Assembly (NCBI GenBank): GCA_030280995.1
Contig: JASXTE010000010.1
Coordinates: 26,425,823-26,489,822, forward strand
Source of the DNA: Hemileia vastatrix
Taxonomy: Eukaryota; Basidiomycota; Pucciniomycetes; Pucciniales; Zaghouaniaceae
Length of the DNA stretch: 64,000 nt
Reading direction: 5' to 3'
Both the position numbers and the translations under genes were made by a program. Below, piece by piece: positions 6,657 through 63,308 of this stretch. The notes below the pieces were generated by a model. The model ran no database searches and had not been told where the DNA came from. It worked only from the letters and a program-made list of their open reading frames with translations. The first letter of the stretch is position 1. Every line of letters starts with the position of its first letter.

Positions 6657-7181
6657 GTAAGTGGCATTAATTTGCTCATTTTACAGGGGGAGGTGTCAAG
6701 TAAATTGGAATTATTTTATTATTATTTTTTTTATTTTTCCTAGTTGACAATAATAGAGCAATTGTGTTCTTAGTCCTAGAAGCAATACAAATTATATTTT
6801 AAAAATTAATTATTATAATATTCAGTTGACTTTTGTCCTGATAAATTTAATTTTATTTGTTTCAGTTGACAAATTGTCCTGACAATAAAATTTTATAAAA
6901 TTCATATTTAAGTATTTCAGTTGACATTAAGTCCTGGTAGTTAATTATTCAGTTGATTTAAAAATACCGATAATAATTCTCATAAAATTGTTAATAAAAA
7001 ATTTAAATTTATTTCTTCAGTTGATTATATTATAATCCTGGTTTTAAATTGTTTTGAATTAATAAATTGATTATTATTTTAGTTAATTTTATTCTGAAAA
7101 CTATTTTTTTATTATTTTTCTTTTAAATATAAAGTAGAAATATAATTTAATTCATCTTATTTTCTCCCTCTCTCATTGCAG
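6657..7181 (+). other. Proposed leader intron of A1
   Basis: A consensus donor GTAAGT sits at 6657. A pyrimidine tract ending CATTGCAG sits at 7174-7181, just 12 nt before the gag ATG. The proposed 525-nt intron would contain all the stem-loops at 6741-7040. A donor in the same relative place occurs in D1 (48097), D2 (61901) and B (23424). Confidence 0.5.
6741..7040 (+). promoter_or_regulatory. Series of bulged stem-loops in the A1 leader
   Basis: Units at 6741-6778, 6823-6840, 6863-6881, 6918-6936 and 7018-7040 (plus a decayed one at 6950) share the plan NNN-TT-GAC, loop, GTC-N'N'N'. Outer pairs are TAG/CTA in the first and CAG/CTG in the others; inner pairs are GAC/GTC, or GAT/ATC in the last. 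The TT is unpaired on the 5' side. Loops vary in length and sequence. The role (packaging, translation or splicing control) is not known. Confidence 0.7.
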
Positions 7182-7265: not shown

Positions 7266-7323
7266 GTGAGTTCCCATTTAACTAGAAAATTATCTCAAAT
7301 TAATCAATCATTGTCCAAATCAG
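7266..7323 (+). other. Proposed intron 1 of A1 gag (58 nt)
   Basis: Donor GTGAGT at 7266 and acceptor AAATCAG ending at 7323. Its removal joins gag codon 24 to the +1 frame at 7324, where the overlapping protein begins (D-V-E-M). D1, D2 and B have introns at the matching place. Confidence 0.6.
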
Positions 7324-7611
7324 GATGTAGAGATGGAGGAAGTGGAAGTTCTGGTGGAAACAACTCAGGAACAGAAACCTATTATAAACCCCCCAGAAGG
7401 ACTTCCAAAAGGCTTCAAGATAAAAAAGATGCCATTGCCTCAACAAGTAAAGAACCTGTCAACACATATAAAGGAACTAAGGACAGAAAACTTGAAATTG
7501 AGGTCAAGAGTAGATGCTCTAGAAGAAAAGGTAAGAAAAATAGATGTTTTTCTTCAAGAGAAGAGGAAACCCCCTCCCCACAGGGATCTTCAGCAATTGG
7601 CTCCCCAGTAG
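7324..7611 (+). pseudogene. A1 overlapping +1-frame protein, truncated by a stop
   Basis: The frame starts at the intron 1 junction and has an in-frame ATG at 7333 (GAGATGGAG). It encodes a segment with LPKGFKIKKMPLPQQ followed by a heptad-like helix. A TAG at 7609-7611 interrupts it where A2 has CAG. Beyond the stop the homologous W-x-W and HPYQ motifs can still be read, and the family's terminal Trp codon is TGA. See the intact versions in A2, D1 and D2. Confidence 0.7.
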
Positions 7612-8579
7612 CCAGAAAAAGTGGAAGTATCCAAGTGGCAGTGGGCTTACCTGTCTCAAAACCAACAGACACCCCAAGCTGGTCCATCCAGACACAACCA
7701 AGTCAACCCAACACCTCCTCACCCCTATCAAGGAGGAAGAAGAAGAAAAAACAATATGATCTTGCCCAGCAAACCTTGATAAGCCCCTCTATTGATTCTC
7801 AAGTACCATTTCTTGTAACTAATTCAGTTCCCTCAGGTAATTATGGAAGAGGAGATGAGACTGTGAGACCTCTAGAGAACAGTAGACAAATTGCTCAAAT
7901 TTCAAATGTATCTAATCCTTTAGTTCTAATTGCTACCTCAATGATAAATCCTGATATGGCTGTTATTGATGAGACACTTGAACCTGAGTTTTATAAGATG
8001 CTGGAAAGTTACTCTGTTTCCTTACTGAGAAACACTCCAGATGTAGCTAACATCAATGATGAATATTTGAGAGATATTTTTCCCAAACAAAACCATATAA
8101 TGAACAACATGCAATTGACTCAGAAATATAATAGTTTGTTAACTGAGCAGGGTTATCAAGCATTAAGAAGTGAACAACAGAGAGTCTCTGATGATTTGTC
8201 TCATTACAAAGCAACCCATGAAAAGAAAGTTGCTTTATGGCAAAATATCAAAAATGATTTGTCTAAACTGAAAGATACTGTATCTGCCTGTTGCCAGGAT
8301 GTGGAGATAGAAAAGATGAATCTGAAAAGATTGAATGACCAATTTTCATCTTTTCAAAATAAGAATCAGTAATATTTTGCAACAATCAATGAGAGTTTAT
8401 CTAGTCTTCCAAGATTGAAAACTAGACTAACAACCATTGAGGAGAAATTGAACTGATTGTTTAATGATCAAAAATATTCTGACATTTCTTTAAAGAAACA
8501 TATGGTGCAGAATGCTCCAAGGTTACCTGTGGCTAGTTCATCTAAAGTAAAATTAGTTCCAGAAATACCTGTTGATACC

Positions 8580-23970: not shown

Positions 23971-26118
23971 ATGTGTGACAACAATGACATTGTAAGTAAT
24001 AAGGCAAAACCTTATAACTTAAGAACTAGAGCTGAAAGACCTGTTACAGGACATCCGAATGGAGGGTCAAGAATCACCAGTAACAATAAACAACACCCCA
24101 CCAATGTCCATGGAGGAAAAGGAAAAGCTCTAAAAACAAATGTCAATAAAGAAGTCCAAAAACAACTTACAAGAGCAAATTCACTCCCTCTCAACCCTAC
24201 TGAATACACTAACAATAAGAGTAAACAATATGTTAGACCAGATCAACAATCTGGAGAAAAGGGCGGCGCAGGGCTTTATAGAAGTCAACCAGGCTCTAGT
24301 GGATATAAGGTCTCATCAACAACCAGTGGCACCAAATACCACAGCAACACCTCCAGTCCCAGAAGAGGACCAAAAGATAACTGTAAGCAAATGGAAGTGG
24401 GATTGGTATTCCCAAAACTACAACAGTCCTCCTCAACAGGGATCCAGCAGTCACCCTTACAGGGGAAAGCCAAGGAGAGGCAGGGGAAATGGAATAAGAC
24501 CGTGGTAAGTCATCCATCTTCTCAAGATCAATTATATAATCCTAACAATGAATTACTTATAGGTAATGAAATTGATAGAGAGTTATTGGATATAATTGAT
24601 AAGGATTTAAAAAATTATTCATTTGAAAATAACATGTTAGACTTGTCTTTAAATGAGGACAATGTACATAGTTTTATTGACCACCAGGAAAATACTATTA
24701 ATATAAAAATGGAATCAAATGAATTAAAAATTGACCCTGATGATGAATCTTCTGAATTGGAAACAGACAAAATTGAATATTTTCTAAAAGAAAATCCAAT
24801 GGAATCAAAAATAATTAGTAAATTATTATTAAGAATTGAAAAATTGGAAGAATTCTCTAGAGAGTCCAACAATAATACGGAAAGTGTATTATTAAACATC
24901 ACACAATCATTGAGTACAACAGCCAATAAGTTAAAAGTTATTGAGAATTCAAATAATGAATTGATCAATGAAAACAAAAGATTAAATTCTGAGATTAAAA
25001 ATTTAGAAATTAAATTAGAACATTCTCAGAATATTATGGACACCATAGAGGGACGTGTAAAATTGTCTTTTTCAAATGTAAATGATACCTTAACTCATGT
25101 ACCTGTGATAAAATATAGGTTACAAAGAGTAGAAATTGAAGTAGCTAACATTTTGAAAAATACTGAAACAATAAAGGATAATACCTCTTATGTAGGAAGA
25201 GAACCAGTTTTTATGAAACACTCTGATGATAAACCAATGATGGAACATGAACATAGTGTCATGGGCTCTGAGAATATAAAATCAGTAAAAGATGAAATAA
25301 ATGATCATCTTTCTAAAGTAAGTGAATTACTTAATATTCCTCAGGTTAGGGAAGCAAAAACTAGCCAAAAGAACTGGCCTAAGTTAGATCAGTACCCTTC
25401 TTTTGACAGGGATTCAAAATCTGATTGGCAACAATCCATACAAAGAATTGATAACTTAAAATTTTCATACAAACTACCTGATGAAGAAATTACTTCAAAG
25501 TTAATATCTTTATTTACAGATGTGGCCTTATTATGGTTTGAATCTGTATTGAGTGAGGGAATTAATTACTCCTGGAATGAATGGAAGGCACTAATTGAAA
25601 GGCAATTTGGTGGCCCAAAATTTAGAATCACTCAACAAAGATTGTATGAAAAGGCCAGATATAATCCAAATTCTGGAGATAAACCCATGGTCTTCTTAAT
25701 GAATTTAATAAAAATCATGAAAGCTATGGATCCAAAAATGGATTATGAAGAGTGGAAAGAAAAAATAATATACAAGTTGCCTATATCAGTTAGAGACATT
25801 ATTATAGCTAGAACTGAAACTATCAGAGATACCTCTGGATTCATTAATATATGCAATGAGATATTATTAAACCACAAGTATGAAACCAAGTATAGTAATT
25901 ACAGACAAAGTGTTGACATGGTAAAAACTACTACAAGTAAGTTACCAGTGGAAAAGAAAAAACCTTCAGCTCCCCTTGTCCCTAAGAGACAAGAAAATAA
26001 CACTTGTTACAAATGTAATGAACCTTGGGTTAAGGGTCACACGTGTAAGAAGAGAATAAATGTTATTGAAACCTCACAGAATTCTGAACCTAGTAATCAT
26101 GAAGATGAGAATGTGTAA
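23971..26118 (+). CDS. gag: B Gag
   Basis: 715 codons. The N-terminal 200 residues are basic and Ser/Gln-rich and overlap a second frame. Residues about 290-410 are predicted coiled coil (L/I/N/K-rich heptads). The conserved capsid-like region (W-P-K-L-D-Q-Y-P-S-F-D) starts near 467, and the knuckle CYKCNEPWVKGHTC lies near 679-692. It ends at a single TAA (26116-26118), after which homology to D2 continues in the same frame into protease. The stop could be an inactivating point change or could be read through to make Gag-Pol. In D2 the same region is open. Confidence 0.9.
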   Translation: MCDNNDIVSNKAKPYNLRTRAERPVTGHPNGGSRITSNNKQHPTNVHGGKGKALKTNVNKEVQKQLTRANSLPLNPTEYTNNKSKQYVRPDQQSGEKGGAGLYRSQPGSSGYKVSSTTSGTKYHSNTSSPRRGPKDNCKQMEVGLVFPKLQQSSSTGIQQSPLQGKAKERQGKWNKTVVSHPSSQDQLYNPNNELLIGNEIDRELLDIIDKDLKNYSFENNMLDLSLNEDNVHSFIDHQENTINIKMESNELKIDPDDESSELETDKIEYFLKENPMESKIISKLLLRIEKLEEFSRESNNNTESVLLNITQSLSTTANKLKVIENSNNELINENKRLNSEIKNLEIKLEHSQNIMDTIEGRVKLSFSNVNDTLTHVPVIKYRLQRVEIEVANILKNTETIKDNTSYVGREPVFMKHSDDKPMMEHEHSVMGSENIKSVKDEINDHLSKVSELLNIPQVREAKTSQKNWPKLDQYPSFDRDSKSDWQQSIQRIDNLKFSYKLPDEEITSKLISLFTDVALLWFESVLSEGINYSWNEWKALIERQFGGPKFRITQQRLYEKARYNPNSGDKPMVFLMNLIKIMKAMDPKMDYEEWKEKIIYKLPISVRDIIIARTETIRDTSGFINICNEILLNHKYETKYSNYRQSVDMVKTTTSKLPVEKKKPSAPLVPKRQENNTCYKCNEPWVKGHTCKKRINVIETSQNSEPSNHEDENV
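23992..24049 (+). other. Proposed intron 1 of B gag (58 nt)
   Basis: Donor GTAAGT at 23992 and acceptor TGTTACAG ending at 24049. Removal joins gag codon 7 to the +1 frame at 24050, where the reading D-I-R-M matches D-V-E-M at the same junction in A1 and D1. Confidence 0.6.
24050..24508 (+). CDS. B overlapping +1-frame protein
   Basis: In the frame entered after intron 1, one TAA at 24131-24133 interrupts the reading. An ATG at 24140 then opens 122 codons to the stop at 24506. The protein has a helical heptad-like segment (L-x-x-x-I-x-x-L spacing, about residues 8-55), then VSKWKWDW, HPY, Arg/Gly-rich basic residues and a terminal Pro-Trp. The last four features are shared with the A2 and D versions although the rest is diverged. 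It lies wholly inside gag. Function unknown; not certain that it is expressed. Confidence 0.65.
24505..24562 (+). other. Proposed intron 2 of B gag (58 nt)
   Basis: Donor GTAAGT at 24505, branch-like CTAAC at 24542-24546 and acceptor TTATAG ending at 24562. The donor G is the last base of the terminal Trp codon of the overlapping frame. After splicing, TG plus GTAA again reads Trp-stop. D1, D2 and A2 have the same length and arrangement. Confidence 0.6.
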
Positions 26119-29992: not shown

Positions 29993-30023
29993 ATTTTTTT
30001 ATTGTTTTTTTTGGGTGGGCAAG
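29993..30023 (+). promoter_or_regulatory. B T-rich box and polypurine tract
   Basis: T7-ATTG-T8 followed by GGGTGGGCAAG immediately before the 3' LTR. It corresponds to the T-box plus AGAGTGAGGGAG of A and D. The stretch 29845-29992 is an AT-rich untranslated region with nothing else visible. Confidence 0.7.
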
Positions 30024-32263: not shown

Positions 32264-32321
32264 CTGAAGGAACAGAATCAGCTACAAGAAATGGCACTTG
32301 AGAATCAATAGAGGGGCTTAC
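32264..32321 (-). other. Proposed intron 2 of A2 gag (58 nt)
   Basis: On the minus strand: donor GTAAGC starting at 32321, branch-like CTGAT, pyrimidine tract and TTCAG ending at 32264. It begins in the last Trp codon of the overlapping frame, as in B and D. Confidence 0.55.
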
Positions 32322-32799
32322 CAAGGTTTGCTGGGCAGGACAATATTGTTTTTTATTCTTCTGCATCCTTGATAGGGGTGAGGAGGTGTGGGGTTGACTT
32401 GGCTGGGTCTTGACGGACCTGCTTGAGGCAACTGATGCTGATTTTGAGACAGGTAGTCCCACTGAGTGTTTAGCCAATCCCACTGCCACTTGGATACTTC
32501 CACTTTCTCTGGCTGCTGAGGAGCCAATTGTTGATGATCACTGGGGGGATGAGGTTTCCTCTTCTCTTGAAGAAATGCATCTATCTTTCTTACCTTTTCT
32601 TCCAGAGCATCCACTCTTGCCCTCACTCTCAAGTTTTCTGTCCTTAGTTCCTTTATGTGTGTTGACAGATTCTTTACCTGTTGAGGCAATGGCATCTTTT
32701 TTATTCTGAAGCCTTTTGGAAGTTCTTCTGGAGGGTATCTTACAGGTTTCTGATCCTGAGTTGTTTCCACCAGGATTTCCACTTCTTCCATCTCCACAT
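32318..32799 (-). CDS. A2 overlapping +1-frame protein, open copy
   Basis: Open in the +1 frame of gag, with the conserved ATG at 32791 and the stop at 32318-32320 (157 codons from that ATG). It carries FRIKKMPLPQQ, a heptad-like helix with repeated Leu and Val, VSKWQWDW, PTPPHPYQ, basic residues and a terminal Pro-Trp. It stays open although the gag frame of the same copy has a stop inside this stretch. The matching intron 1 donor GTAAGT is intact at 32858, but its acceptor reads CAA instead of CAG at 32801-32803. Confidence 0.65.
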
Positions 32800-33089
32800 C
32801 TTGTTTGGGTCAATGATTGATTAATTTGAGATACTTTTCTTGTTAAAGGAGAACTTACAGAAGTAGCCTCATCATAATAAATTAAGTCCAGTTCCTCTTC
32901 ATGTGCAGCAGAAACACTTTGGTCAGTCATTTTTTAAATTCAACTGAAATGAGGAAGGGAGACAATAAGATGAATTAGACTTTTATTTTTACTTTTTATT
33001 TGAAAGAAATAAATAAAAAATAAAATCTTTTTAGGATAAAAAATCAACTAAAATAATAATTAATTTATTAATTCAAAATAATTTAAAAC

Positions 33090-33308
33090 CAGGATTATAA
33101 AATAATCAACTGAACAAATAAATTAAAATATTTATTAATAATTTTATGATAATTATTATCAGGATTTTAAATCAACTGAATAATTAACTAACAGGACTTA
33201 ATGTCAACTGAAATAATTAAATATGAATTTTATTAATTATATAAAAAATCTATTGTGAAGACAATTTGTCAACTGGAACAAAAAAAATCTAATTTATCAG
33301 GACAAATG
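33090..33308 (-). promoter_or_regulatory. Bulged stem-loops in the A2 leader
   Basis: Read on the minus strand, units at 33112-33090, 33178-33160 and 33210-33192 have the plan CAG-TT-GAC/T, loop, GTC or ATC, CTG. A degraded unit is at about 33276-33255. The last is cut by the C LTR at 33309. Inner pairs alternate GAC/GTC and GAT/ATC, keeping the pairing. The 33209-33309 interval otherwise has no gene. Confidence 0.65.
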
Positions 33309-42258: not shown

Positions 42259-42336
42259 TATCTTCAGATTTTTTTCTTGATTTTCATGAATTATCTTGAA
42301 ATTTTAATATTCTTTTCTTGAGTTTTCTTCTGTCCT

Positions 42337-42478
42337 ACAAAAATAACCAGGGGTTTCCCCAATGCTCACAGGTGTGGCCCAGGTAATGTTTTTGAAAGGT
42401 GTAGAAGAAACCCTAGCGGTGCACAATTGGGAGGACTTACTTTTAGACCCCAATCTCACCGCCCCAAAACTTTTCCGC
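42337..42478 (-). repeat. Internal duplication in C (second copy of 41957-42098)
   Basis: About 140 bp, roughly 90 percent identical by eye, encoding R-K-S-F-G-x-V-R-L-G in both copies. It lies between the gag-protease frame and the pol frame, in a frame that is open from 42720 to 42304 but has no recognisable domain apart from the duplicated part. Confidence 0.75.
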
Positions 42479-42719
42479 ATATCTTTCAATAAAGATATAT
42501 AACCAATCTTCTTCTTTAAACTTGAATTAAAAATAATTAAGAATCTTGAGAGAGAACAGAGACTTGATAAAAAACTTGATGAATACTTGCAGAGAAGAGA
42601 AACATTAAAAAGAGAAGTTTGAAAATCCACTTGGTATATCTCCAAGGGAGCTGACCTACTACAACATGGGATTTCCTCATTTCGGGGAGAGGTTGTAGCA
42701 CTAGGCTGATCAGCCCTCA

Positions 42720-46693: not shown

Positions 46694-47832
46694 TGTCAGC
46701 CAGGCTATTCCAGGAGTCCAGTAAATGATATATAAATTATAAAACCCTAAAAAGTGGGTAAGACTTGTATTTAATGAATATAACCTAATATTTTATTGTA
46801 TAATGAAATTATATAAAAATTTTATTATATACAAGTGTTACATTAAATTTATTGGTTATATATATTTTTATATACAATTAAATTGAGCATAATATAATAA
46901 CTTCTACAAATAATGGCGCATTTTTATGTATTTAATAATTATAAATTTATATTTAATTAATTAAAAAACATATATTATAATTACAAGTGTAAATTTGATT
47001 TATAATATATTTAAATTAATTACTTAAATTTATATATTAAATAATACCTCTCATATGATACTAAACAATTATTAAGGACGCTTCTTTTGACCCTTAATTG
47101 TGTTAGAAAAAACAAATAAATTAATTTGGACTAAATTGAGATTAATTGCTTGTTTGGTTGCGTCAAATTATTTTTTGTTTCACTTAAAATGTCCTCTAAT
47201 CAGAATGTACCATCTGTTGGGAATTATATTTCTCATAGTTCCTATGTTTCCAATCTTGTTTAGTTATTCACTATTGTCACTTACTGATTTGGGAATTAAT
47301 GGCGGGGAAATTGGATTCTTAATTGGGCTTTTAATTATTTGTTTCATGTTTTTCTTTATATTGTTATGTTTCATTTACTCTTTTGATATGTTTGTTTTAT
47401 TCCTTTCTAATCATTGTATTTACTGATATAGTAGCGCTTCAGAGGACCCATTGCCTATAAAAGGGCCTTGGATAATCCCCTGTAGCCTTATCACTTATTA
47501 CACACTCAACAATTTAAAAATAAATTTATTACGCTTATTATTATTTTTATTAGTATTAAATTCTAATTTAAAATTCTAAATAACAATTTAAAGGTTGCCT
47601 TAAGTCTGATAGTAATTATAATGTTTGCCGCGCAGAACTCTTACTTAAATAATATTAATATTAATAAAACCAATTTGTTGTCACCTCTCAAATCACTCGT
47701 CGTTGCTTTCTCTCAAATAAATTAAATAATTTCAATTGTTTTTATTTCTTTTATTTCTAAACTACTATCTCCTTCTTGTCCTCCTCTCTTTTCTTCCCTC
47801 TTCTCTTATATCTTCTAGACGACTGACCGACA
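46694..47832 (+). mobile_element. D1 5' LTR
   Basis: 1139 bp, TGTCAGCCAGGCTATTCC to GACCGACA. The first 101 bp are identical to the start of the D1 3' LTR (63900-64000). Termini resemble family A, but the interior is distinct. A TATA box is at 47456-47464. Confidence 0.92.
47456..47464 (+). promoter_or_regulatory. TATA box of the D1 5' LTR
   Basis: TATAAAAGG in TTGCCTATAAAAGGGCC. Confidence 0.6.
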
Positions 47833-47846
47833 ACTGGGGGCCTTTC
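47833..47846 (+). other. D1 primer-binding site
   Basis: AC then TGGGGGCC, fitting a tRNA 3' end GGCCCCCA. D2 has TGAGGGCC at the same place (about 62166-62159), one mismatch. Confidence 0.5.
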
Positions 47847-48096
47847 CAAACGACAACGACGATCGAGCCTGGCGACGAACGACAAAACGCACGGACCACC
47901 TAGCAAAACGAAACTTTTGCCGCGACTGTGTTTCGAACTTGGGTTCGACATCTTAGGTTTATATATTATTAAGTTTTATATTATTTGAAGTGATTTTTCG
48001 ATCACTATAGTAAGTTCACCTTTGCGCCTCTCACTCATATTACTATATTTTTATTGCAATAACAGTGATTGTGGCTTAATTGCTGATTCACTGAGT

Positions 48097-48520
48097 GTAA
48101 GTGTTCAATTTTAAAATTTTTTTTTCCTAGTTGACCATTATAGAGTGTTAAATCCTCTTAGTCCTAGAAGAATTAACATTATTATTAATACAAATTGAAT
48201 TATTAATTTAATTTTTTTTTTATTATTAATTATTGTTAATTTTGGTTGACTTAAAAGTACATTGTGCTTAGTCCCAAATATATTGCCATATTTAATATTG
48301 GTAATTAATTGGTTGAATTAAATTACTTGTTATTCCCAATTTAACCTTGCAATCCATTTTTTTTTTTAAAAAATAAATTAATTTTTTAATTATTACTTTA
48401 TTTTGAAAATTATTTCTATAATTTAATTAATTAAATATTTTTTTTTATTTGGAGCAATTATTGACTAACTTTGATTATTTTTTTATAAAGTACAAAGTAA
48501 AATATAAATCTTCCCACTAG
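48097..48520 (+). other. Proposed leader intron of D1 (424 nt)
   Basis: Donor GTAAGT at 48097 and acceptor TCTTCCCACTAG ending at 48520, one base before the gag ATG. It encloses the D1 stem-loops. The stretch 47847-48096 holds no gene that I can see. Confidence 0.5.
48127..48341 (+). promoter_or_regulatory. Three bulged stem-loops in the D1 leader
   Basis: 48127-48167 pairs CTAG/CTAG and GAC/GTC. 48241-48278 pairs TTTGG/CCAAA and GAC/GTC. 48307-48341 pairs AATTGG/CCAATT and GAAT/ATTC. Each has an unpaired TT on the 5' side between the two helices, as in family A. The stems differ in sequence but keep pairing. Confidence 0.7.
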
Positions 48521-48596
48521 TATGTCCAACAATTTGGCAGAAAAAATGGATAACATGCAAGTGGATGAGATAGAAATTGACTATGATGCTGACACT

Positions 48597-48660
48597 GTAA
48601 GTTCTTCTAAAGTTGGTCATAAAAAATCTTATGCTAACACAAGGAATTCACATACTGCAG
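48597..48660 (+). other. Proposed intron 1 of D1 gag (64 nt)
   Basis: Donor GTAAGT at 48597, branch-like CTAAC at 48634-48638 and acceptor ATACTGCAG ending at 48660. Removal joins gag codon 25 to the +1 frame at 48661. Confidence 0.65.
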
Positions 48661-49203
48661 GATGTGGAAATGACAGGAAATGCAAACAAACCAAACCCCC
48701 TTCCCCCAGTACCACAGAAGGAAGTAAAGCCTCTAGTGCCTCAAGAAGGTCTTCCAAAAGGCTTCAAAATAAAAAAGCTTCCTCTGCCACAACAAATCAG
48801 TAACCTATCCAGTCATATAAAAGAGTTGAAGAGAGAAAATATGACGTACAAAGCAAAGGTAGACACATTGTGGGATCAGGTCCAAGAACTCAGGAACCAG
48901 ATTCAGGCCCAGGCCCCTCCTCAATTGCCTCCCAATCAGCTTCAATTTCAGGCTCAACCTTCACAGCCACCCAGCTCAACCATCCAAAATCCAAATACTA
49001 TGGAAGTAGAGCAATGGAAATGGGATTATCTAATGAGTCACTACCAACAGAATGTGCAACACCCTCCTCATCATCAGCCTGGCCCATCCAGAACACCCAA
49101 TTTCCATCCACCTCCTCATCCCTACCAACAAAGCAGGAGAAAGAAGGCCCAAGCACAATCCCAAACCCAGTCCCAGGGGAAGTTTCCTCCTCTGCCATGG
49201 TAA
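48661..49203 (+). CDS. D1 overlapping +1-frame protein
   Basis: Open from the intron 1 junction to the stop at 49201, 180 codons (first internal ATG 48670). With the 25 codons of exon 1 (48522-48596) it would make a protein of about 205 residues. It has a Pro-rich start, LPKGFKIKKLPLPQQ, a heptad-like coiled coil (about 35-75), a Gln/Pro-rich middle, VEQWKWDYL, HPPPHPYQ, a basic RRKKAQ segment and a terminal Pro-Leu-Pro-Trp. It is near identical in D2 and recognisably conserved in A2 and B. Several upstream ATGs make simple scanning to 48670 unlikely, which favours splicing as the route of expression. Function unknown. Confidence 0.7.
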   Translation, partial: DVEMTGNANKPNPLPPVPQKEVKPLVPQEGLPKGFKIKKLPLPQQISNLSSHIKELKRENMTYKAKVDTLWDQVQELRNQIQAQAPPQLPPNQLQFQAQPSQPPSSTIQNPNTMEVEQWKWDYLMSHYQQNVQHPPHHQPGPSRTPNFHPPPHPYQQSRRKKAQAQSQTQSQGKFPPLPW

Positions 49204-49257
49204 GTAATTTGGTTGATAGTCACTTGGGTATGTTTTCTAATAAATCTTCTTCTGCAG
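49200..49257 (+). other. Proposed intron 2 of D1 gag (58 nt)
   Basis: Donor GTAAGT at 49200, CTAAT at 49237-49241, pyrimidine-rich TCTTCTTCTGCAG ending at 49257. Splicing from the +1 frame regenerates Trp-TAA. Splicing from the gag frame shifts it and ends translation after about 19 codons. Confidence 0.65.
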
Positions 49258-54137: not shown

Positions 54138-55278
54138 TGTCGGCCGGTCGTCTAGAAGAAGGAGAAAATAGAAGAAGGAAAGAGAGGAGGAGAAGGAGGG
54201 AAAAGTAGGGGGAATAAAAAAATAAAATTTTAATAAAATTATTTAATTTATTGAGAGGGAAACAACGATAAGTGAGCTGGGAGGTGACAACAACTTGTTT
54301 TTACTAATATTAATATTATTTAAGTAAGAGTTCTGCGCGGCAATCAAAATAATTACTATCAGACTTAAAGCAACCTTTAAATTGTTATATAAAATTTTAA
54401 TTAGATTTTTATTACTAATAAAAAGAATATAAACGTAATATAAAAATTGTATTTAAATTGTTGAGTGTATAATAAGTGATAAGGCTACAGGGGATTATCC
54501 AAGGCCCTTTTATAGGCAATGGGTCCTCTGAAGCGCTACTATATCAGTAATTACAATGATTAGAAAGGAATAAAACAAATATATCAAAAAGAGTAAATGA
54601 AACATAACAATATAGAGAAAAACATGAAACAATTAATTAAAAGCCCAATTAAGAATCCAATTTCCCCGCCATTAATCCCCAAATCAGTAAGTGACAATAG
54701 TAAATAACTAAACAAGAGTGGAAACATAGGAACTATGAGAAATATAAATTCCAACAGATGGTCCATCCTGATTTGAGGACATTTTAAGTGAAACAAAAAA
54801 TAATTTGACGCAACAAAACAATCAATTAATCTCAATTTAGTTCAAATTAATTTATTTGTTTTTTTCTAACACAATTAAGGGTCAAAAGAAGCGTCCTTAA
54901 TAATTGTTTAGTGTCATATGAGAGGTATTAGTTAATATATAAATTTAAGTAATTAATTTAAATATATTATAAATCAAATTTACACTTGTAATTATAATAT
55001 ATGTTTTTTAATTAATTAAATATAAATTTATAATTATTAAATATATAAAAATGCGCCATTATTTGTAGAATATATTATATTATGCTCAATTTAATTGTAT
55101 ATAAAAATATATATAACCAATAAATTTAATGTAACATTTGTATATAATAAAATTCTTATATAATTTCATTATGTAATAAAATATTAAGTTATATTCATTA
55201 AATACAAGTTTTACCCACTCTTTAAGGTTTTATAATTTATATATCATTTACTGGACTCCTGGAATAGCCTGGCTGCCA
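54138..55278 (-). mobile_element. D2 3' LTR
   Basis: 1141 bp; line-by-line comparison with 62168-63308 shows one difference (C at 55276 against A at 63306, in the terminal TGACA). The target duplication TGCAC precedes it (54133-54137). The polypurine tract of D2 is CTCCCTCACTCT at 55279-55290 on the + strand. A very recent insertion. Confidence 0.97.
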
Positions 55279-55312
55279 CTCCCTCACTCTAAAAAAACAA
55301 TAAAAAAAAATG

Positions 55313-58300
55313 CTAAGATTTTTTCTTTTTGTATTTTTTCAACAGAGCAGGCAGATTTGAAATTTCTTTGCCAGGTATCCATGCATCATGTTCAGATGAT
55401 TTGTTCTTATATCTTAATAAATATTCAGTACCTCTTTCAGAAGTGATAATTCTATCATTGAGAATTTTATCAATTTCTGCTGTTTCTGTGACTTCCTGAG
55501 GGTTCTTCTTAGGTCTTCCTCTTCTTTTTGGAAATAAGTCACTGTTGGAAGTATAAGGTTTAAGCAAAGAAATGGGAAAGACAGGATGTTTCCTATCATA
55601 TGGAGAATACAATACAACTTCTACTGCATTATCACCAACCATTCTTTTAACAACAAATGGTCCTACAAAAGGATCTTTTAATTTGTGGTTACCTTGTAAA
55701 TTGAAATGGACAGTAGAGATCAACACTTCATCACCCTTGTTAAATGTGTATTCTTTATGGGATTTATCCCATCTTTTCTTTTCATATTCAAATGCTTTAT
55801 CAATACAACTCTGGGCATGTTTTCTGCATAGTTGTTGCATTTGCATAAAAGATTTTACACCAGGGTGTAGTTCCAACTTAGGTAATTTATTATTGAGAAT
55901 CTGAGCAGGAGTGTTTGGGACATAACCTAACCAAAGCTCAAACGGCTTTTTCTCAGTGACAGAATGAACAGTGCTATTATATGCAAATTCAAGACCAGGC
56001 AAAAGAGTGACCCAATCATGAGTAAATCTGTCATTATCTTTATATTCTAAACCAAAGGCACAATACCTTCTAATCATATCTTCCAGAGTTTGAATCATTC
56101 TTTCAGCTAGACCATCAGTCTGAGGATGGTGAGCTGTAGATAATTTTAACTCACAGCCACAAATATCCATCAAAGAGGTCCAAAACTCAGAAGTGAATTT
56201 TGGATCCCTATCAGAGATAATGGCTTTTGGAAAACCAATAATATTAAACATGTAAGACCACCATAAGAAAGCTAATTCTTTGGTGGATACATCTTTGTGG
56301 GTTGGAATAAATTTGCACATTTTTGTGAATCTATCAACTATCACCCAACAAGAGTTAAAGCTGTCTTTACCTGCAACAGGAAGACCAGTAACAAAATCCA
56401 TATTAATGATTTGCCAGGGAGCACTAGGTGCTTCAATATGTTGTAATAACCCTGCTCTCTTGCCTGTTAACTTTTTAGATTTTTGGCAGGAATCACAAGA
56501 TTCAACATATAATTTTGTGTCTTCAGACATATTAGCCCACCATGCAGTGTTTTTGATTCTAATCAAGGTTTTTTCAAGATCAAAATGACCAGCTAATATG
56601 TCATCATGACAAAGTTTGAGGATAGTTTCTTTCATTGAAGGAGGAATAACAATTACATTGGTAAGCTTCCTTCTATAATAAATATAACCATCTTCAATAG
56701 AAAACTTTCCTTTATTTAAAGCATTTTGGTATTTTGCAGGAAGAGTTTTTATTAATGCTTGAATTGAAGCATTCTTAGGATCATTCAAAATAGTAACTAA
56801 TTTATTTAAGTCAGAATCTTTATCATATGAATCCAGTATTAACTGTAATAACTCTTCTTCCATGTCAACTATAAATATACCATGTATATGAACAGTGTCA
56901 TCCTCAGGTACATAAGCAGGATTGGAGTCATTATTTGGCAGAGGCAACCTGGAGAGCATATCAACATTAGAGTGAACATTTCCAGCTCTGTGGATAATAG
57001 TCATCCTTCCTCTGTATTCCTGAACAGCAAGTTGCCACCTGAACATATGTCTGTTAGGTGTTTTGAGGTTTAAGAGAGATTTCACAGCACTACAGTCAGT
57101 TACCAACTCAAATTTTTGGTCATCCAAGTAGTAATGAAGTTTCTCAAGAGCCCAAACAACTGCTAAGCACTCCAATTGAGTGGCACCATATTTCAATTCA
57201 CTATTTCTTAAGGTTCTTGAAATATAACAAATTACAACCTCTGAGGATTTATCATTAATAATTTGCTTTTGGTGAAGGGCAGCACCCAGACCAATAAAGC
57301 TAGCATCTGTATAAAGTACAAATGGCTTGTTAAAATCTGGAAGAGCCAATATAGGGGCTGACATTAAGCAATTTTTCAATGTATTAAAAGCTTTTTGACA
57401 GTCATCATTCCAGAGAAAAGCAACATCTTTTCTGGTTAGTTTTGTAAGAGGCAAGGCTATGACCTGATAATTTTTAATATATTGTCTATAATAGCCACAC
57501 ATACCTAAAAAACTTTGTATTTCTCTTACAGAAGTTGGTGCTTTCACATTTTGAATGGCAGCAACTTTATTATGGTCTACACAAATTTGTAAGCCTGACA
57601 CAACATGGCCAAGGACTTTCAAAGATTGAAAACCAAATTTACACTTTTTTAAAGATAAGGTCATATTGATTTCATCCATTTTTTGGAAAACTCTATTTAA
57701 ATGAATCATATGTTCATCAAAAGTTTTAGAAAAAACAATAATATCATCAATATAAACCATGAGCCAACCTTCAATAATTTCTTGATGGAAAGTGTTATCC
57801 ATGACTTTTTGGAAAACTGAAGGAGCATTTTTAGGGCCAAATGGCATCCTAACATACTTATATATTCCCATATGAGTAGCAATAAGCAAAAAATTTTGAG
57901 AATTTTTCTCAACTGGAACTTGATGATAACCTTTATTACCATCCAGACAACTAATAAATTTTGCACCTTGCAAGGTAGCATGTATTGAATTAATTCTGGG
58001 TAAAGGATAAATATCATCAACAGTATAAGTATTTAAAGCTCTGTAATCTCCACATAATCTAGCTTTATCTTTTTCATAAGAAATTAAGACTGGGGAGATG
58101 ACACAATATTTGGGGGTGACATCCACTTTCTCAATGATATTCATTTTCAATAATGTTTCAATATTATCTTCAATATCTTTTCTTTTTGATGGAGAAGCAG
58201 GATATGGTTTTTTCTTAAGGGAAGGAGGAATATCACTCAAATTACAGGATAAGGTAATTTTCATTTCTTCTTGAACAATTCCCAAGACATGAGAACCATG

Positions 58301-61300
58301 AGCAAAAGCCATAGGGAAAGAGGTAATAGAGGCAACAATAGAATCCTTTTGTTCATTAGTCAAATGATCACCAAAAGAAGCGGTATTTATTTCATGTAAT
58401 AAATCATCCATTTCAGTTGTTGTTCTACCTTTACATTGGGTCAGTGAGTTACAAGATTTCAACAAATGCCCAGAAGGTTTAGGAGAAGAAATTTTGAATT
58501 TTCTTTTCCCATTCATTCCTAAGGTAAAGCAATTATTTGCTGGGTCCAGTTTCACACCAAACATGGTTAAAATATCATTTCCCATAATAAACCAATTGCT
58601 CAAATTATCATTTTTCATGACAACAAACTCACAAATAGCTCTGACAAAACCACCATTATATTTGAAGAATACAGAGGTTTTGTATTTGCCAATAGGGAAT
58701 AAGGTAGAACCATACCCTCTCCATTTTTCAGAAGTTATAGGCAATAATTTACTCAAATATTCCTTATCCACTGAAGCTAAAGCTTTTTTAGATACTACAC
58801 TTCCTCCAGCACCAGAATCAAGAACTACATCAACATTTTTACCATTAATGATAACAGGTGCCTTTAAAGGGGATATAGGAATAGAATTGTTAGTAATATC
58901 TTTAATTATCTCAGCATTTTCTACTGAAGATAAATTCAATACACAATCTTCAGATATATTATTTAAATAATGGACATCATGTTCCAGCATTAAAACATCT
59001 TTAACAGATTCATTGTCATAGGAGATATTACTTTCACAGTCACTGGAAGAATTATTGACATCAAGTTCAATTTCATCAGTGTCTTCATTTTGTTCAACAA
59101 GATGAATTTTCTTGTCACAAACATGACCCTTCTGCCACGGTTTGTTACATTTATAACAAGTATTTGTTGCATATTTTTTAGGTGCAACTGGGGCAGAGGG
59201 TTTACCAGATTTTTCTGGGAGCTTTACAGAAGGTTTATTTTGATCATTATAAGATTTACTAAGGTAATTCTTTGGTTCATACCTATGGTTGAGTAGTACT
59301 TCATTACAGATATTAATGAAAGAAGAATTTTCCCTTACATGCTCAGTTCTAGCAACAATCAAATCCCTAAGAGAATTTGGTAATTTATACAAGATTTTAT
59401 CTCTCCAAATATCATAATCCATCTTTGGATCAATGGCTCTAAGGATTTTAGTTATTTTCATCAGAAAAACAATGGGCTTTTCAACAGAGGAGGATACATA
59501 TCTAGTATTCTCATACAGTCTTTGCTGAGCTAACCTGAATTTTGAACCACCAAACTGATTCTCAATCAAGGATTTCCAATCATTCCATGTATAATGATTG
59601 TTATCTAAGAGGACAGATTCATACCACATCAAGGCTACATTGGAAAATAAAGAAATTAGCTTAGAAACAATTTCCTCATCAGGTAGTTTATAAGATCTCT
59701 TTAAATTATCAATTCTTTGGATAAAGTGTTGCCAATCAGAGGAAGAATCACCATCAAAGGTAGGATATTGGTCTAACTTAGGCCAATTTTTCTGACTACT
59801 GGGATGGTCCATTTTTTGGTTTGAATTATTCATTAGTAATAATTCCTGAAGTTTAGCCAGGTGTTCAGAAATTTCATTATTTACAGAAACAGCTGGTGCA
59901 TGACCATCACAAGATTTTTTGCTAGTAGCAAAAGATTTTACAGACTCATTGTCAGTTTGTTTAATGGTTGAAATATGAGGAAGAAAGGATGAACTTTGTT
60001 CAGGTTTTTTCCCTTTATTTTTATGCAGCTTACTGGCAGAAATCTCATTTAATTCATTATTGATGGTTAAGGTTGAGAACTTTTCCTGTAGGTCAGACAC
60101 ATAGTTTCTTATTCTTGGAATTTCAGACATCTGGTCATTCACTTTTGCAAGAGATAGAACATTTCTGTCCTCAGAAACTGAGTGTTTGGTACTTAGTGCA
60201 TGGAAGTCATTTTTTAGTTTCTTCAACTCATTTTGTAGAGATTTTATTTCATTTTTGAATGAATAATTTCCCTCAATAAGGGGTTTCAATTCACTCAATG
60301 TCTTATGCAGACTAATATTTCTATCTGAGATAGCTCTATGGTCACTTCTTATTTGTTTTTGTTGACTAAGAACAATATTCAAGGTTTCTTTGATTTTTAA
60401 ATAAGCTGTATCTTGTACAGAAGAACTCACTCTACATTGCAAGTGTAAATTATTTAATCTATCATTTTCATGGATTAACACATCTCTCACATGTTTGTCT
60501 TTCACAATATTAAAATCAAGGGTATCTTTCAAAATTTCCTCAGAAGTTTTTTCAATTAAGTTATAGATTTCAGGGGGAACAGAATCATTTTTAATTGCAA
60601 GAGAAGGATTAATTAAAGATGTAGAAGTTAAATGTAAAGGTTCATCAAATGACAATTTGCTAATTACATCAATAGGGCTACTAGTTACAGGAAGCTGTCT
60701 TTTAACAGGTTTAACTGTTCTTTCACCATGTTCAATAATATTACCTGCAGAAGAAGATTTATTAGAAAATATACCCAAGTGACTATCAACCAAATTACTT
60801 ACCATGGCAGAGGAGGAAACTTCCCCTGGGACTGGGTTTGGGATTGTGCTTGGGCCTTCTTTCTCCTGCTTTGTTGGTAGGGATGAGGAGGTGGATGGAA
60901 ATTGGGTGTTCTGGATGGGCCAGGCTGATGATGAGGAGGGTGTTGCACATTCTGTTGGTAGTGACTCATTAGATAATCCCATTTCCATTGCTCTACTTCC
61001 ATAGTATTTGGATTTTGGATGGTTGAGCTGGGTGGCTGTGAAGGTTGAGCCTGAAATTGAAGCTGATTGGGAGGCAATTGAGGAGGGGCCTGGGCCTGAA
61101 TCTGGTTCCTGAGTTCTTGGACCTGATCCCACAATGTGTCTACCTTTGCTTTGTACGTCATATTTTCTGTCTTCAACTCTTTTATATGACTGGAGAGGTT
61201 GCTGATTTGTTGTGGCAGAGGAAGCTTTTTTATTTTGAAGCCTTTTGGAAGACCTTCTTGAGGCACTAGAGGCTTTACTTCCTTCTGTGGTACTGGGGGA

Positions 61301-61480
61301 AGGGGGTTTGGTTTGTTTGCATTTCCTGTCATTTCCACATCCTGCAGTATGAGAATTCTTTGTGTTAGCATAAGATTTTTTATGACCAACTTTAGAAGAA
61401 CTTACAGTGTCAGCATCATAGTCAATTTCTATCTCATCCACTTGCATGTTATCCATTTTTTCTGTCAAATTGTTGGACAT
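55313..61480 (-). CDS. gag-pol: D2 Gag-Pol polyprotein, intact
   Basis: One uninterrupted frame of 2055 codons starting at 61480. Domains as listed for D1, all catalytic residues present: protease Asp 888, RT YIDD 1243-1246, RNase H Asp 1392, integrase H-H-C-C and Asp 1716, Asp 1757, Glu 1793. A chromodomain-like tail from about 2002 contains EIDKIL, YLLRYKNK and Trp in DAWIPGKE, so the element is a chromovirus that may target histone-marked chromatin. Gag and Pol are in one frame with no stop or shift between them, as in some fungal Ty3-type elements. The start is supported by homology with A1, A2 and D1. Possibly still active, given the nearly identical LTRs. Confidence 0.96.
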   Translation of the reverse strand: MSNNLTEKMDNMQVDEIEIDYDADTVSSSKVGHKKSYANTKNSHTAGCGNDRKCKQTKPPSPSTTEGSKASSASRRSSKRLQNKKASSATTNQQPLQSYKRVEDRKYDVQSKGRHIVGSGPRTQEPDSGPGPSSIASQSASISGSTFTATQLNHPKSKYYGSRAMEMGLSNESLPTECATPSSSSAWPIQNTQFPSTSSSLPTKQEKEGPSTIPNPVPGEVSSSAMVSNLVDSHLGIFSNKSSSAGNIIEHGERTVKPVKRQLPVTSSPIDVISKLSFDEPLHLTSTSLINPSLAIKNDSVPPEIYNLIEKTSEEILKDTLDFNIVKDKHVRDVLIHENDRLNNLHLQCRVSSSVQDTAYLKIKETLNIVLSQQKQIRSDHRAISDRNISLHKTLSELKPLIEGNYSFKNEIKSLQNELKKLKNDFHALSTKHSVSEDRNVLSLAKVNDQMSEIPRIRNYVSDLQEKFSTLTINNELNEISASKLHKNKGKKPEQSSSFLPHISTIKQTDNESVKSFATSKKSCDGHAPAVSVNNEISEHLAKLQELLLMNNSNQKMDHPSSQKNWPKLDQYPTFDGDSSSDWQHFIQRIDNLKRSYKLPDEEIVSKLISLFSNVALMWYESVLLDNNHYTWNDWKSLIENQFGGSKFRLAQQRLYENTRYVSSSVEKPIVFLMKITKILRAIDPKMDYDIWRDKILYKLPNSLRDLIVARTEHVRENSSFINICNEVLLNHRYEPKNYLSKSYNDQNKPSVKLPEKSGKPSAPVAPKKYATNTCYKCNKPWQKGHVCDKKIHLVEQNEDTDEIELDVNNSSSDCESNISYDNESVKDVLMLEHDVHYLNNISEDCVLNLSSVENAEIIKDITNNSIPISPLKAPVIINGKNVDVVLDSGAGGSVVSKKALASVDKEYLSKLLPITSEKWRGYGSTLFPIGKYKTSVFFKYNGGFVRAICEFVVMKNDNLSNWFIMGNDILTMFGVKLDPANNCFTLGMNGKRKFKISSPKPSGHLLKSCNSLTQCKGRTTTEMDDLLHEINTASFGDHLTNEQKDSIVASITSFPMAFAHGSHVLGIVQEEMKITLSCNLSDIPPSLKKKPYPASPSKRKDIEDNIETLLKMNIIEKVDVTPKYCVISPVLISYEKDKARLCGDYRALNTYTVDDIYPLPRINSIHATLQGAKFISCLDGNKGYHQVPVEKNSQNFLLIATHMGIYKYVRMPFGPKNAPSVFQKVMDNTFHQEIIEGWLMVYIDDIIVFSKTFDEHMIHLNRVFQKMDEINMTLSLKKCKFGFQSLKVLGHVVSGLQICVDHNKVAAIQNVKAPTSVREIQSFLGMCGYYRQYIKNYQVIALPLTKLTRKDVAFLWNDDCQKAFNTLKNCLMSAPILALPDFNKPFVLYTDASFIGLGAALHQKQIINDKSSEVVICYISRTLRNSELKYGATQLECLAVVWALEKLHYYLDDQKFELVTDCSAVKSLLNLKTPNRHMFRWQLAVQEYRGRMTIIHRAGNVHSNVDMLSRLPLPNNDSNPAYVPEDDTVHIHGIFIVDMEEELLQLILDSYDKDSDLNKLVTILNDPKNASIQALIKTLPAKYQNALNKGKFSIEDGYIYYRRKLTNVIVIPPSMKETILKLCHDDILAGHFDLEKTLIRIKNTAWWANMSEDTKLYVESCDSCQKSKKLTGKRAGLLQHIEAPSAPWQIINMDFVTGLPVAGKDSFNSCWVIVDRFTKMCKFIPTHKDVSTKELAFLWWSYMFNIIGFPKAIISDRDPKFTSEFWTSLMDICGCELKLSTAHHPQTDGLAERMIQTLEDMIRRYCAFGLEYKDNDRFTHDWVTLLPGLEFAYNSTVHSVTEKKPFELWLGYVPNTPAQILNNKLPKLELHPGVKSFMQMQQLCRKHAQSCIDKAFEYEKKRWDKSHKEYTFNKGDEVLISTVHFNLQGNHKLKDPFVGPFVVKRMVGDNAVEVVLYSPYDRKHPVFPISLLKPYTSNSDLFPKRRGRPKKNPQEVTETAEIDKILNDRIITSERGTEYLLRYKNKSSEHDAWIPGKEISNLPALLKKYKKKKS
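60745..60802 (-). other. Proposed intron 2 of D2 gag (58 nt)
   Basis: Minus-strand donor GTAAGT at 60802 and CTGCAG ending at 60745, identical in layout to D1. Confidence 0.65.
60799..61341 (-). CDS. D2 overlapping +1-frame protein
   Basis: Open from the intron 1 junction (61341) to the stop at 60799-60801, with the conserved ATG at 61332. Same motifs as in D1: coiled coil after PLPQQ, VEQWKWDYL, HPYQ, basic segment, terminal Trp. One visible change from D1 inside the exon is Lys-Arg-Glu-Asn to Lys-Thr-Glu-Asn. It is intact in this probably active copy. Confidence 0.7.
   Translation of the reverse strand, partial: DVEMTGNANKPNPLPPVPQKEVKPLVPQEGLPKGFKIKKLPLPQQISNLSSHIKELKTENMTYKAKVDTLWDQVQELRNQIQAQAPPQLPPNQLQFQAQPSQPPSSTIQNPNTMEVEQWKWDYLMSHYQQNVQHPPHHQPGPSRTPNFHPPPHPYQQSRRKKAQAQSQTQSQGKFPPLPW
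61342..61405 (-). other. Proposed intron 1 of D2 gag (64 nt)
   Basis: Minus-strand donor GTAAGT at 61405, CTAAC at 61368-61364 and CTGCAG ending at 61342. Confidence 0.65.
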
Positions 61481-61481
61481 A

Positions 61482-61901
61482 CTAGTGGGAAGATTAATAT
61501 TTTACTTTGTACTTTATAAAAAAATAATCAAAGTTAGTCAATAATTTGCTCCAAATAATATAAAAAATTTTTTAATTAATTAAATTATAGAAAAATTAAC
61601 TTTCAATATAAAGTAATAATTAAAAATTAATTTTTTAAAAAAAATGGATTGCAAGTTTAAATTGGGAATAACAAGTTAGTTAATTCAACCAATTAATTAC
61701 CAATATTAAATATGGCAATATATTGGGACTAAGCACAATGTACTTTTAAGTCAACCAAAAATTAACAATAATTAATAAAAAAAAATTAAATTAATAATTC
61801 AATTTGTATTAATAATAATGTTAATTCTTCTAGGACTAAGAGGATTTAACACTCTATAATGGTCAACTAGGAAAAAAAAATTTTAAAAATTGAACACTTA
61901 C
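61482..61901 (-). other. Proposed leader intron of D2 with stem-loops
   Basis: Donor GTAAGT at 61901 and acceptor CCACTAG ending at 61482 on the minus strand (420 nt). Stem-loops equivalent to those of D1 lie at about 61871-61829, 61760-61723 and 61695-61660. 61902-62167 is the remaining leader with a primer site next to the LTR; no gene seen. Confidence 0.5.
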
Positions 61902-62167
61902 ACTCAGTGAATCAGCAATTAAGCCACAATCACTGTTATTGCAATAAAAATATAGTATTATGAGTGAGAGGCGCAAAGGTGAACTTACTATAGTGATCGA
62001 AAAATCACTTCAAAATAATATAAAAATTAATATTATATAAACCTAATATGTCGAACCCAAGTTCGAAACACAGTTGCGGCAAAAGTTTCGTTTTGCTAGG
62101 TGGTCCGTGCGTTTTGTCGTTCGTCGCCAGGCTTCGATCGTCGTCGTCGTTTGGAAAGGCCCTCAGT

Positions 62168-63308
62168 TGTCGGCCGGTCGTCTAGAAGAAGGAGAAAATA
62201 GAAGAAGGAAAGAGAGGAGGAGAAGGAGGGAAAAGTAGGGGGAATAAAAAAATAAAATTTTAATAAAATTATTTAATTTATTGAGAGGGAAACAACGATA
62301 AGTGAGCTGGGAGGTGACAACAACTTGTTTTTACTAATATTAATATTATTTAAGTAAGAGTTCTGCGCGGCAATCAAAATAATTACTATCAGACTTAAAG
62401 CAACCTTTAAATTGTTATATAAAATTTTAATTAGATTTTTATTACTAATAAAAAGAATATAAACGTAATATAAAAATTGTATTTAAATTGTTGAGTGTAT
62501 AATAAGTGATAAGGCTACAGGGGATTATCCAAGGCCCTTTTATAGGCAATGGGTCCTCTGAAGCGCTACTATATCAGTAATTACAATGATTAGAAAGGAA
62601 TAAAACAAATATATCAAAAAGAGTAAATGAAACATAACAATATAGAGAAAAACATGAAACAATTAATTAAAAGCCCAATTAAGAATCCAATTTCCCCGCC
62701 ATTAATCCCCAAATCAGTAAGTGACAATAGTAAATAACTAAACAAGAGTGGAAACATAGGAACTATGAGAAATATAAATTCCAACAGATGGTCCATCCTG
62801 ATTTGAGGACATTTTAAGTGAAACAAAAAATAATTTGACGCAACAAAACAATCAATTAATCTCAATTTAGTTCAAATTAATTTATTTGTTTTTTTCTAAC
62901 ACAATTAAGGGTCAAAAGAAGCGTCCTTAATAATTGTTTAGTGTCATATGAGAGGTATTAGTTAATATATAAATTTAAGTAATTAATTTAAATATATTAT
63001 AAATCAAATTTACACTTGTAATTATAATATATGTTTTTTAATTAATTAAATATAAATTTATAATTATTAAATATATAAAAATGCGCCATTATTTGTAGAA
63101 TATATTATATTATGCTCAATTTAATTGTATATAAAAATATATATAACCAATAAATTTAATGTAACATTTGTATATAATAAAATTCTTATATAATTTCATT
63201 ATGTAATAAAATATTAAGTTATATTCATTAAATACAAGTTTTACCCACTCTTTAAGGTTTTATAATTTATATATCATTTACTGGACTCCTGGAATAGCCT
63301 GGCTGACA
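62168..63308 (-). mobile_element. D2 5' LTR
   Basis: 1141 bp, on the + strand TGTCGGCCGGTCG to GCCTGGCTGACA, followed by TGCAC (63309-63313). The complement of the TATA box is at about 62538-62546. Confidence 0.97.

Follow-up and report, generated by a model that had tools for sequence, protein, structure and literature searches.

Retrotransposons with long terminal repeats (LTRs) that encode Gag-Pol as a single open reading frame (ORF) face a problem, in that they depend on one RNA and have to balance how much of it is spliced, translated, and packaged. How a fungal element might manage this is the question raised by a 64,000-nucleotide stretch of the genome of Hemileia vastatrix (assembly GCA_030280995.1, contig JASXTE010000010.1, positions 26,425,823 to 26,489,822 of the forward strand; hereafter the window). 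The window has a G+C content of 34.5% and is densely filled with nested LTR retrotransposons. Three families are compared here, A (copies A1 and A2), B, and D (copies D1 and D2), all five copies coming from this one window. In all three, which are chromoviruses of the Ty3/Gypsy type, a predicted gene in the +1 frame overlaps the N-terminal region of Gag. The initial annotation held that spliced RNA makes an accessory protein from this frame and unspliced RNA makes Gag-Pol. The analysis presented here supports a real +1 gene, with splicing as the best candidate route into it, and changes the hierarchy of the two genes: the +1 frame appears to be the conserved one, and frame 0 above it the freer.

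Conservation of the +1 frame

The case for a second gene is made by its conservation. Predicted +1 proteins of different families align with z-scores of 10–33 in five copy pairs, B included; the frame-0 peptides give −0.1 to 1.1 in the three pairs with B, and 8.7 and 11.2 in two A/D pairs. When the frame-0 peptide was kept and synonymous codons were permuted, the observed +1 similarity was reached in 0 of 1000 permutations in each of the five between-family pairs. The length of the +1 ORF is not significant by comparison (P = 0.04–0.25 in the five copies, with the frame-0 peptide fixed), so that length alone is weak evidence and conservation the strong evidence. The C-terminal motifs that had been described as common to the three families, namely WxWD, HPY, a basic stretch, and a final Pro-Trp-stop, are found in A2, B, D1, and D2; in A1, WxWA and HPY are present and Pro-Trp is absent.

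A per-frame comparison of substitutions, proposed with the initial annotation as a check and run here on the copies in the window, likewise came out in favor of constraint on the +1 frame. Between A1 and A2 the overlap contains 29, 10, and 13 substitutions at frame-0 codon positions 1, 2, and 3, respectively, compared with 21, 14, and 50 downstream (chi-square P = 2.4e-4), position 1 of frame 0 being the third codon position of the +1 frame. The selected frame in the overlap therefore differs from that downstream, and the predicted +1 gene of family A shows the mark of purifying selection. Between D1 and D2 there are 2, 0, and 1 substitutions in the exon, too few for judgement, and 11, 7, and 49 downstream.

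Frame 0 has itself been kept open across the predicted +1 gene, as expected if Gag-Pol is translated from its starting ATG. With the +1 protein fixed, 5.1–7.3 frame-0 stops would be expected per copy, and 0, 1, 0, 1, and 0 are observed (P at most 0.0014 per copy, n = 5); the frame is uninterrupted over the +1 exon in A1, B, and D2 and has one stop each in A2 and D1. A control of 26 segments of singly coding sequence gave 524 stops against 519.9 expected, with a minimum of 6, and one of these segments, in a host ORF at 709, returned P below 0.01. The +1 exon is uninterrupted in three of the five copies (A2, D1, and D2). Internal stops are equally frequent in the two frames, each having them in two copies, and favor neither; D2 is the only copy in which both frames and the sites of both predicted introns (see below) are intact. 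The residues encoded in frame 0 would seem to be mostly a by-product of the +1 gene. Given this, and the conservation of the +1 frame, it is more apt to see the +1 gene as the more constrained and perhaps the older of the two, with Gag-Pol superimposed on it, than to see it as an addition to Gag. The overlap would be an example of a mobile element under constraint in two frames, of a kind that annotation by longest ORF overlooks.

Entry into the +1 frame

The initial annotation placed a donor within the first 26 gag codons of A1, B, D1, and D2, and an acceptor 58, 58, 64, and 64 nucleotides (nt) from it, respectively. This spacing is borne out by the letters, as is the claim that removal always lands in one +1 frame, which opens with DVEM in A and D and with DIRM in B. 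The donor of this predicted intron 1 begins at gag codon 25 in A1, 8 in B, and 26 in both D1 and D2, and it falls between codons, and thus in the same phase, in all three families. The acceptor is where the families begin to be similar; immediately before it, the +1-frame peptides are dissimilar. It is because the similarity starts at this point, and because the donor phase is the same in three families, that splicing appears to be the best route into the +1 frame. A2 has kept the donor and lost the acceptor AG; the AG one base further on would shift the frame.

On the sense strand of D2 (∼9.2 kb), just three short GTRAGY-CTRAY-YAG units are present, intron 1 and the second intron described below among them, compared with an average of 0.47 in shuffles, for a pattern that was composed after both introns had been seen. 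The donor word GTAAGY occurs three times in the Gag-Pol ORF of D2 and is commoner in B (nine occurrences), so that the argument for splicing rests mostly on D and on position.

A second intron-like unit at the +1 stop

Several features go beyond the initial annotation: an intron-like unit at the +1 stop, an array of hairpins with a predicted leader intron, the in-frame stops of the +1 frame in A1 and B and of frame 0 in A2 and D1, the stop in place of the final Trp codon in A1, and the loss of the acceptor in A2. The first of these arises where the +1 gene ends in TGG-TAA, the sequence TGGTAAG doubling as a donor. The unit is exactly 58 nt long in A, B, and D and ends in YAG followed by GTAA, a combination seen at only 13 of the 1659 YAGs on the plus strand of the window (elements included) and present at this point in all three families. 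CTRAY lies 18–21 nt before the end of the unit in all five copies, the donor having been lost in A1. Frame-0 residues within it are alike between B and the other copies only at both ends. Removal would join TG to GTAA and leave Trp-stop unchanged; the stop is identical with or without the intron, and the end of the protein is therefore independent of it. We infer at least occasional splicing of intron 2, the end of the protein having been kept independent of it. The +1 exon of B and D has a unit of the same phase on either side; in A the two units are intact in different copies.

Use of intron 2 to return to the Gag frame can be rejected: the combined length of the two introns is 2 mod 3 in every family, and the +1 stop stays in place. 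The remaining unit found by the pattern scan of D2 lies within its Gag ORF at 59922–60033 on the minus strand (112 nt, at +1447).

Features of the +1 protein

The predicted protein has an acidic head and a basic tail. Exon 2 alone has an isoelectric point of 9.2–9.7, and the last 45 residues carry a net charge of +4.9 to +7.8 in A2, D2, and B. A structure model, built from three sequences, consists of one helix, a weaker helix, and disorder; the former spans residues 42–84 of the D exon, with a predicted local distance difference test (pLDDT) score above 90 in its middle, and the rest is largely of low confidence. The helix is similar to those of bZIP proteins and leucine zippers, at a level below the Pfam cut-off. 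Compared with solved structures, a profile of the +1 protein gave six sequences at E 0.18–0.92, from the spindle pole protein Spc110, the lipoprotein Lpp, and a proteasome subunit, mostly coiled coils.

Profiles of gag and pol found no match in viral contigs. In contigs of prokaryote genomes the pol profile matched two, presumably contaminants, the coordinates of which seem not to reach the start of gag.

Hairpins in the leader

The leaders of the A and D copies contain arrays of small hairpins of the form NNRG-UU-GAN, loop, NUC-CYNN. Folded singly, 11 of 11 form a stem with a two-base UU bulge, at z-scores of −0.7 to −3.1, mostly weak. A pattern scan of the leaders finds five in A1, four in A2, three in D1, and four in D2, against ∼0.1 in shuffles, and one in B; the fourth match in D2 and that in B are outside this hairpin family. 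The 5′ half alone, GTTGA, is followed by a matching 3′ arm in 15 of 18 cases in the four leaders and in 2 of 161 elsewhere on both strands, the hairpins so counted coming from related copies and thus not being independent. A covariance model returns 15 matches at E up to 5, 12 of which had served to build it, all in the four A and D leaders and none elsewhere in the window. No match to Rfam was found in 47100–49300 at E up to 1.

A GTAAGT in the leader precedes the entire array in A1, D1, and D2, and an AG adjoining the gag ATG follows it. If these predicted leader introns are spliced, the hairpins would be found only on unspliced RNA.

A model for the +1 gene and its rivals

The reading that we tentatively favor, and to which we would give slightly less than an even chance, is that the conserved +1 gene in gag, likely reached by splicing of the 58–64-nt intron, encodes a protein predicted to have a coiled coil and a basic tail and to regulate the unspliced RNA of the element. 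Fully unspliced RNA would be both the genome and the message for Gag-Pol. Removal of the leader intron, intron 1, and intron 2 would give a spliced RNA that is devoid of hairpins and encodes exon 1 together with the +1 exon (about 160–205 residues). The product would oligomerize through its helix and bind RNA through its basic C terminus, the hairpins being the likely (predicted) target, with the outcome that only unspliced RNA is exported, spared splicing, or packaged. The regulatory role is proposed by analogy with CERV, a product of the Cer1 element discussed below. A more ambitious version, which we consider rather unlikely, is that of a self-contained RNA switch, in which an overprinted, spliced regulator in gag acts on a hairpin target in the leader intron that marks unspliced RNA only. 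Such a switch would be Rev- or CERV-like, of independent origin in a fungal chromovirus whose gag was overprinted on a gene that predates it. If the regulatory reading is true, and unspliced RNA alone carries a mark, retrovirus-like control of RNA would have appeared in such a fungal element by convergence with Cer1.

A number of observations weigh against this regulatory reading. Both introns are predicted from consensus, and intron 1 has a branch site of the form CTRAY in D only. The +1 gene contains one in-frame stop each in A1 and B, and no copy of family A has both introns intact, A1 retaining only intron 1 and A2 only intron 2. The model assigns no role to intron 2. In the remaining part of the A2 leader the acceptor is kept, and no donor was found. 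The leader of B has no GTTGA and none of these hairpins, though the +1 gene is present; no YAG adjoins the ATG at its end, and a stretch of this leader folds with a z-score of −1.0. Because B has the gene without the hairpins, the link between protein and hairpins is weakened.

An alignment of 12 of the hairpins speaks in part for the reading. It has pairs in 84 of 84 cells, six of the seven pairs being imposed by the scan; the outermost (seventh) pair, which the scan did not demand, forms in all 12. Both sides have changed in 17 cells, and covariation is 0.582, compared with 0.260 when shuffled and at most 0.164 when slid. Against the reading, two further measures of covariation do not exceed the shuffles, namely the number of double-change pairs (4 versus 2.8; 114 of 500) and that of pair types (6 versus 7.4; 490 of 500). 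A further objection is that the whole product is not basic, only its tail: exon 1 is acidic, at −2.5 to −7.5, and for the two exons together the net charge ranges from −2.9 to +2.8 across the five copies. Nor is frame 0 wholly free, its similarity exceeding the by-product expectation in A1/D2 (0 of 1000) and marginally in A2/D2 (19 of 1000) and B/D2 (47 of 1000). Finally, homologues of the +1 protein outside the window did not emerge from a single-sequence search (17 candidates, none at E 0.01) or a five-sequence profile (1820 candidates, none at E 1), and there was no match in viral contigs.

The main rival accepts that the +1 gene is spliced and real, and makes its protein either a structural partner of Gag, acting in assembly or as a nucleic-acid chaperone, or a brake on copy number akin to p22 of Ty1, with the hairpins serving as a packaging signal bound by Gag. 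We regard it as a substantial possibility, if itself a doubtful one. A coiled coil with a basic tail is compatible with either role, family B carries the gene without the hairpins, and Gag has a zinc knuckle of its own, as seen by eye in the translation. There is also a partial parallel in Ty1 itself, where p22 is reported to be an alternative product that inhibits Gag and is likewise a second product from the gag region of a fungal LTR retrotransposon (PMC4599808). However, p22 is a same-frame piece of Gag, whereas the +1 protein is encoded in another frame and upstream of the capsid region, and no result obtained here favors structure over regulation.

The other rivals concern the entry into the +1 frame, or its reality. 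Translation without splicing, from a conserved AUG at the fourth codon of the exon by leaky scanning or re-initiation, is improbable. Although Met4 is present in five of five copies, with the context GAGATGG in A and just two preceding AUGs in B (the gag start included), the number of AUGs before it, counted in the same way, rises to four in A1 and eight in D. The residues D-V/I-E/R ahead of Met4 are also conserved, beginning exactly at the acceptor, and in each of the three families donor, phase, and acceptor are found again. A programmed +1 ribosomal frameshift from Gag is very improbable: in A1, B, D1, and D2 the +1 frame is indeed open over the 27–60 nt that precede the exon, but the peptides of this stretch are dissimilar between families, no common slippery word is seen there by eye, and the open stretch in A2 is only 9 nt. 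We give practically no credence to the idea that the +1 ORF is open by chance, or as a consequence of the conservation of Gag. Few +1 stops are expected given frame 0 (means of 1.0–2.9), which would make such a frame unremarkable, but this explanation is already contradicted by conservation between families in the +1 frame and not in frame 0, and by a substitution pattern in the overlap unlike that downstream.

Comparison with known systems

The initial annotation knew of no described fungal Ty3-type element with this layout. None was found among the open-access papers listed, as judged by titles and the openings of abstracts; outside fungi, however, the arrangement has a precedent in CERV of Cer1 (PMC10309623). 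In the passages on Cer1 drawn on here, this Caenorhabditis elegans element is of the Ty3/Gypsy type and has gag-pol without an intervening stop, and the CERV message is spliced, its first three exons being in the gag frame and the fourth, inside gag, in a different frame (PMC10309623). CERV has 517 residues encoded by five exons, the fifth downstream of pol, and is without obvious homology outside nematodes; a basic motif is reported in it, as is a leucine zipper, and experiments established that it is needed for the export of unspliced RNA (PMC10309623). The elements of the window share with Cer1 their type, a gag-pol without a stop, and a conserved different-frame stretch within gag, which would here be an exon. 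The +1 protein resembles CERV in its zipper-like helix and basic region and in that relatives were not found outside its own group, meaning here outside the window. It differs in its predicted length of ∼160–205 residues, in being encoded by two exons, and in its stop, which falls inside the gag region, and in that function is proposed here and was determined by experiment there; no homology is claimed. Hairpin arrays such as those described above are not mentioned in the Cer1 passages. In D2, ∼35 nt separate the pol stop (55313) from the 3′ LTR (55275–55278); a further exon might still lie inside the LTR or pol.

The message for Rev of human immunodeficiency virus type 1 (HIV-1) is spliced and overlaps other frames. 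Rev multimerizes on a structured part of the unspliced RNA, as summarized in the Cer1 report (PMC10309623). The proposed regulator would share this multimerizing character and is unlike Rev in that there is no homology, the target is predicted, and the host is a fungus.

Among the best 120 of 1393 relatives of B pol, the top two are 53–54% identical to it, and the closest named ones are from Puccinia striiformis (42–44%) and Austropuccinia psidii. The P. striiformis Gag-Pol proteins P0010 and P0013 are similarly single ORFs, of 2046–2058 residues; their N-terminal extension is long, and their pol domains resemble those of the window. Unlike the Gag-Pol proteins of the window, they have a precomputed Pfam list without a chromodomain. 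In all, 13 relatives entered the comparison as proteins, a level that is uninformative about a +1 frame.

The elements and their nesting

The assignment of the elements to the Ty3/Gypsy chromoviruses follows from their domains and ends. Pfam domains in D2 and B pol are in the order reverse transcriptase, RNase H, and then integrase, the rve core being below the cut-off in both, and a chromodomain (PF00385) is above the cut-off at residues 2002–2053 of D2 and also in B, C-terminal on the integrase. D2 is flanked by a 5-bp target-site duplication, and its LTR copies (54138–55275 and 62168–63305) are identical over 1138 nt, with a one-base difference seen by eye immediately beyond the matched stretch. 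D2 is therefore likely to be a young insertion. No Pfam capsid family was found in D2 or B gag at E 0.01; by eye, the zinc knuckle follows the presumed capsid. The coordinates of the features are collected in Table 1.

Table 1. Coordinates of elements and predicted features in the window
Feature	Copy	Position	Strand	Remarks
gag start	A1	7194	+	
gag start	A2	32930	-	Apparently interrupted by B
gag start	B	23971	+	
gag start	D1	48522	+	
gag start	D2	61480	-	
Complete element	D2	54138..63308	-	Within D1 integrase; target-site duplication TGCAC at 54133-54137 and 63309-63313
Gag-Pol	D2	55313..61480	-	Single 2055-residue frame-0 ORF; reverse transcriptase, RNase H, integrase, chromodomain; protease below Pfam cut-off
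Predicted leader intron	A1	6657..7181	+	525 nt; sites by eye; 1/100 shuffles folds as well, z -2.8
Predicted leader intron	D1	48097..48520	+	424 nt; sites by eye; 0/100 shuffles fold as well, z -2.9
Predicted leader intron	D2	61482..61901	-	Donor GTAAGT, acceptor TAG adjoining gag ATG; sites paired by eye
Hairpin array	A1	6740..7041	+	Five model-matching hairpins and one degenerate
Hairpin array	A2	33031..33211	-	Four hairpins
Hairpin array	D1	48127..48339	+	Three hairpins
Hairpin array	D2	61662..61870	-	Three UU-bulged hairpins
Exon 1	D1	48522..48596	+	25 codons common to Gag and predicted +1 protein
Predicted intron 1	A1	7266..7323	+	58 nt; GTGAGT...CAG
Predicted intron 1	B	23992..24049	+	58 nt; GTAAGT...CAG
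Predicted intron 1	D1	48597..48660	+	64 nt
Predicted intron 1	D2	61342..61405	-	64 nt; GTAAGT...CTAAC...CAG
Exon 2 (+1 frame)	A1	7324..7778	+	One internal stop; last Trp codon changed to stop, following intron 2 donor lost
Exon 2 (+1 frame)	A2	32318..32800	-	Uninterrupted; acceptor directly upstream lost
Exon 2 (+1 frame)	B	24050..24508	+	One internal stop; ends PW-stop
Exon 2 (+1 frame)	D1	48661..49203	+	Body of +1 frame with stop; one frame-0 stop here
Exon 2 (+1 frame)	D2	60799..61341	-	180 codons and stop; ends PW-stop
Predicted intron 2	A2	32264..32321	-	58 nt; GTAAGC...CTGAT...CAG
Predicted intron 2	B	24505..24562	+	58 nt; GTAAGT...CTAAC...TAG
Predicted intron 2	D1	49200..49257	+	58 nt
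Predicted intron 2	D2	60745..60802	-	58 nt; GTAAGT...CTAAT...CAG; overlaps last Trp and stop codons of +1 gene

Beyond D2, D1 picks up again at ∼63309 and continues toward the end of the window. B occupies 21924–31524, apparently inside A2, and two matched pieces of its LTRs have identities of 99.5% and 99.6%; further pieces of this LTR lie in A1 at 8580–9466. B has one in-frame stop (codon 716, 26116–26118) between zinc knuckle and protease, which may be a lesion or a site of read-through and after which pol resumes in the same frame; D2 is without such a stop. The zinc knuckles at 50841–50891 and within 23971–26118 have, by eye, the unusual spacing C-x2-C-x7-H-x-C, which is shared by the relatives P0001 and P0002, P0006 and P0010 having C-x2-C-x4-H-x4-C instead. 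Lastly, the minus strand of 38570–44561 holds fragments that resemble, by eye, a different Ty3-type element, with integrase, reverse transcriptase, and Gag-protease ORFs.
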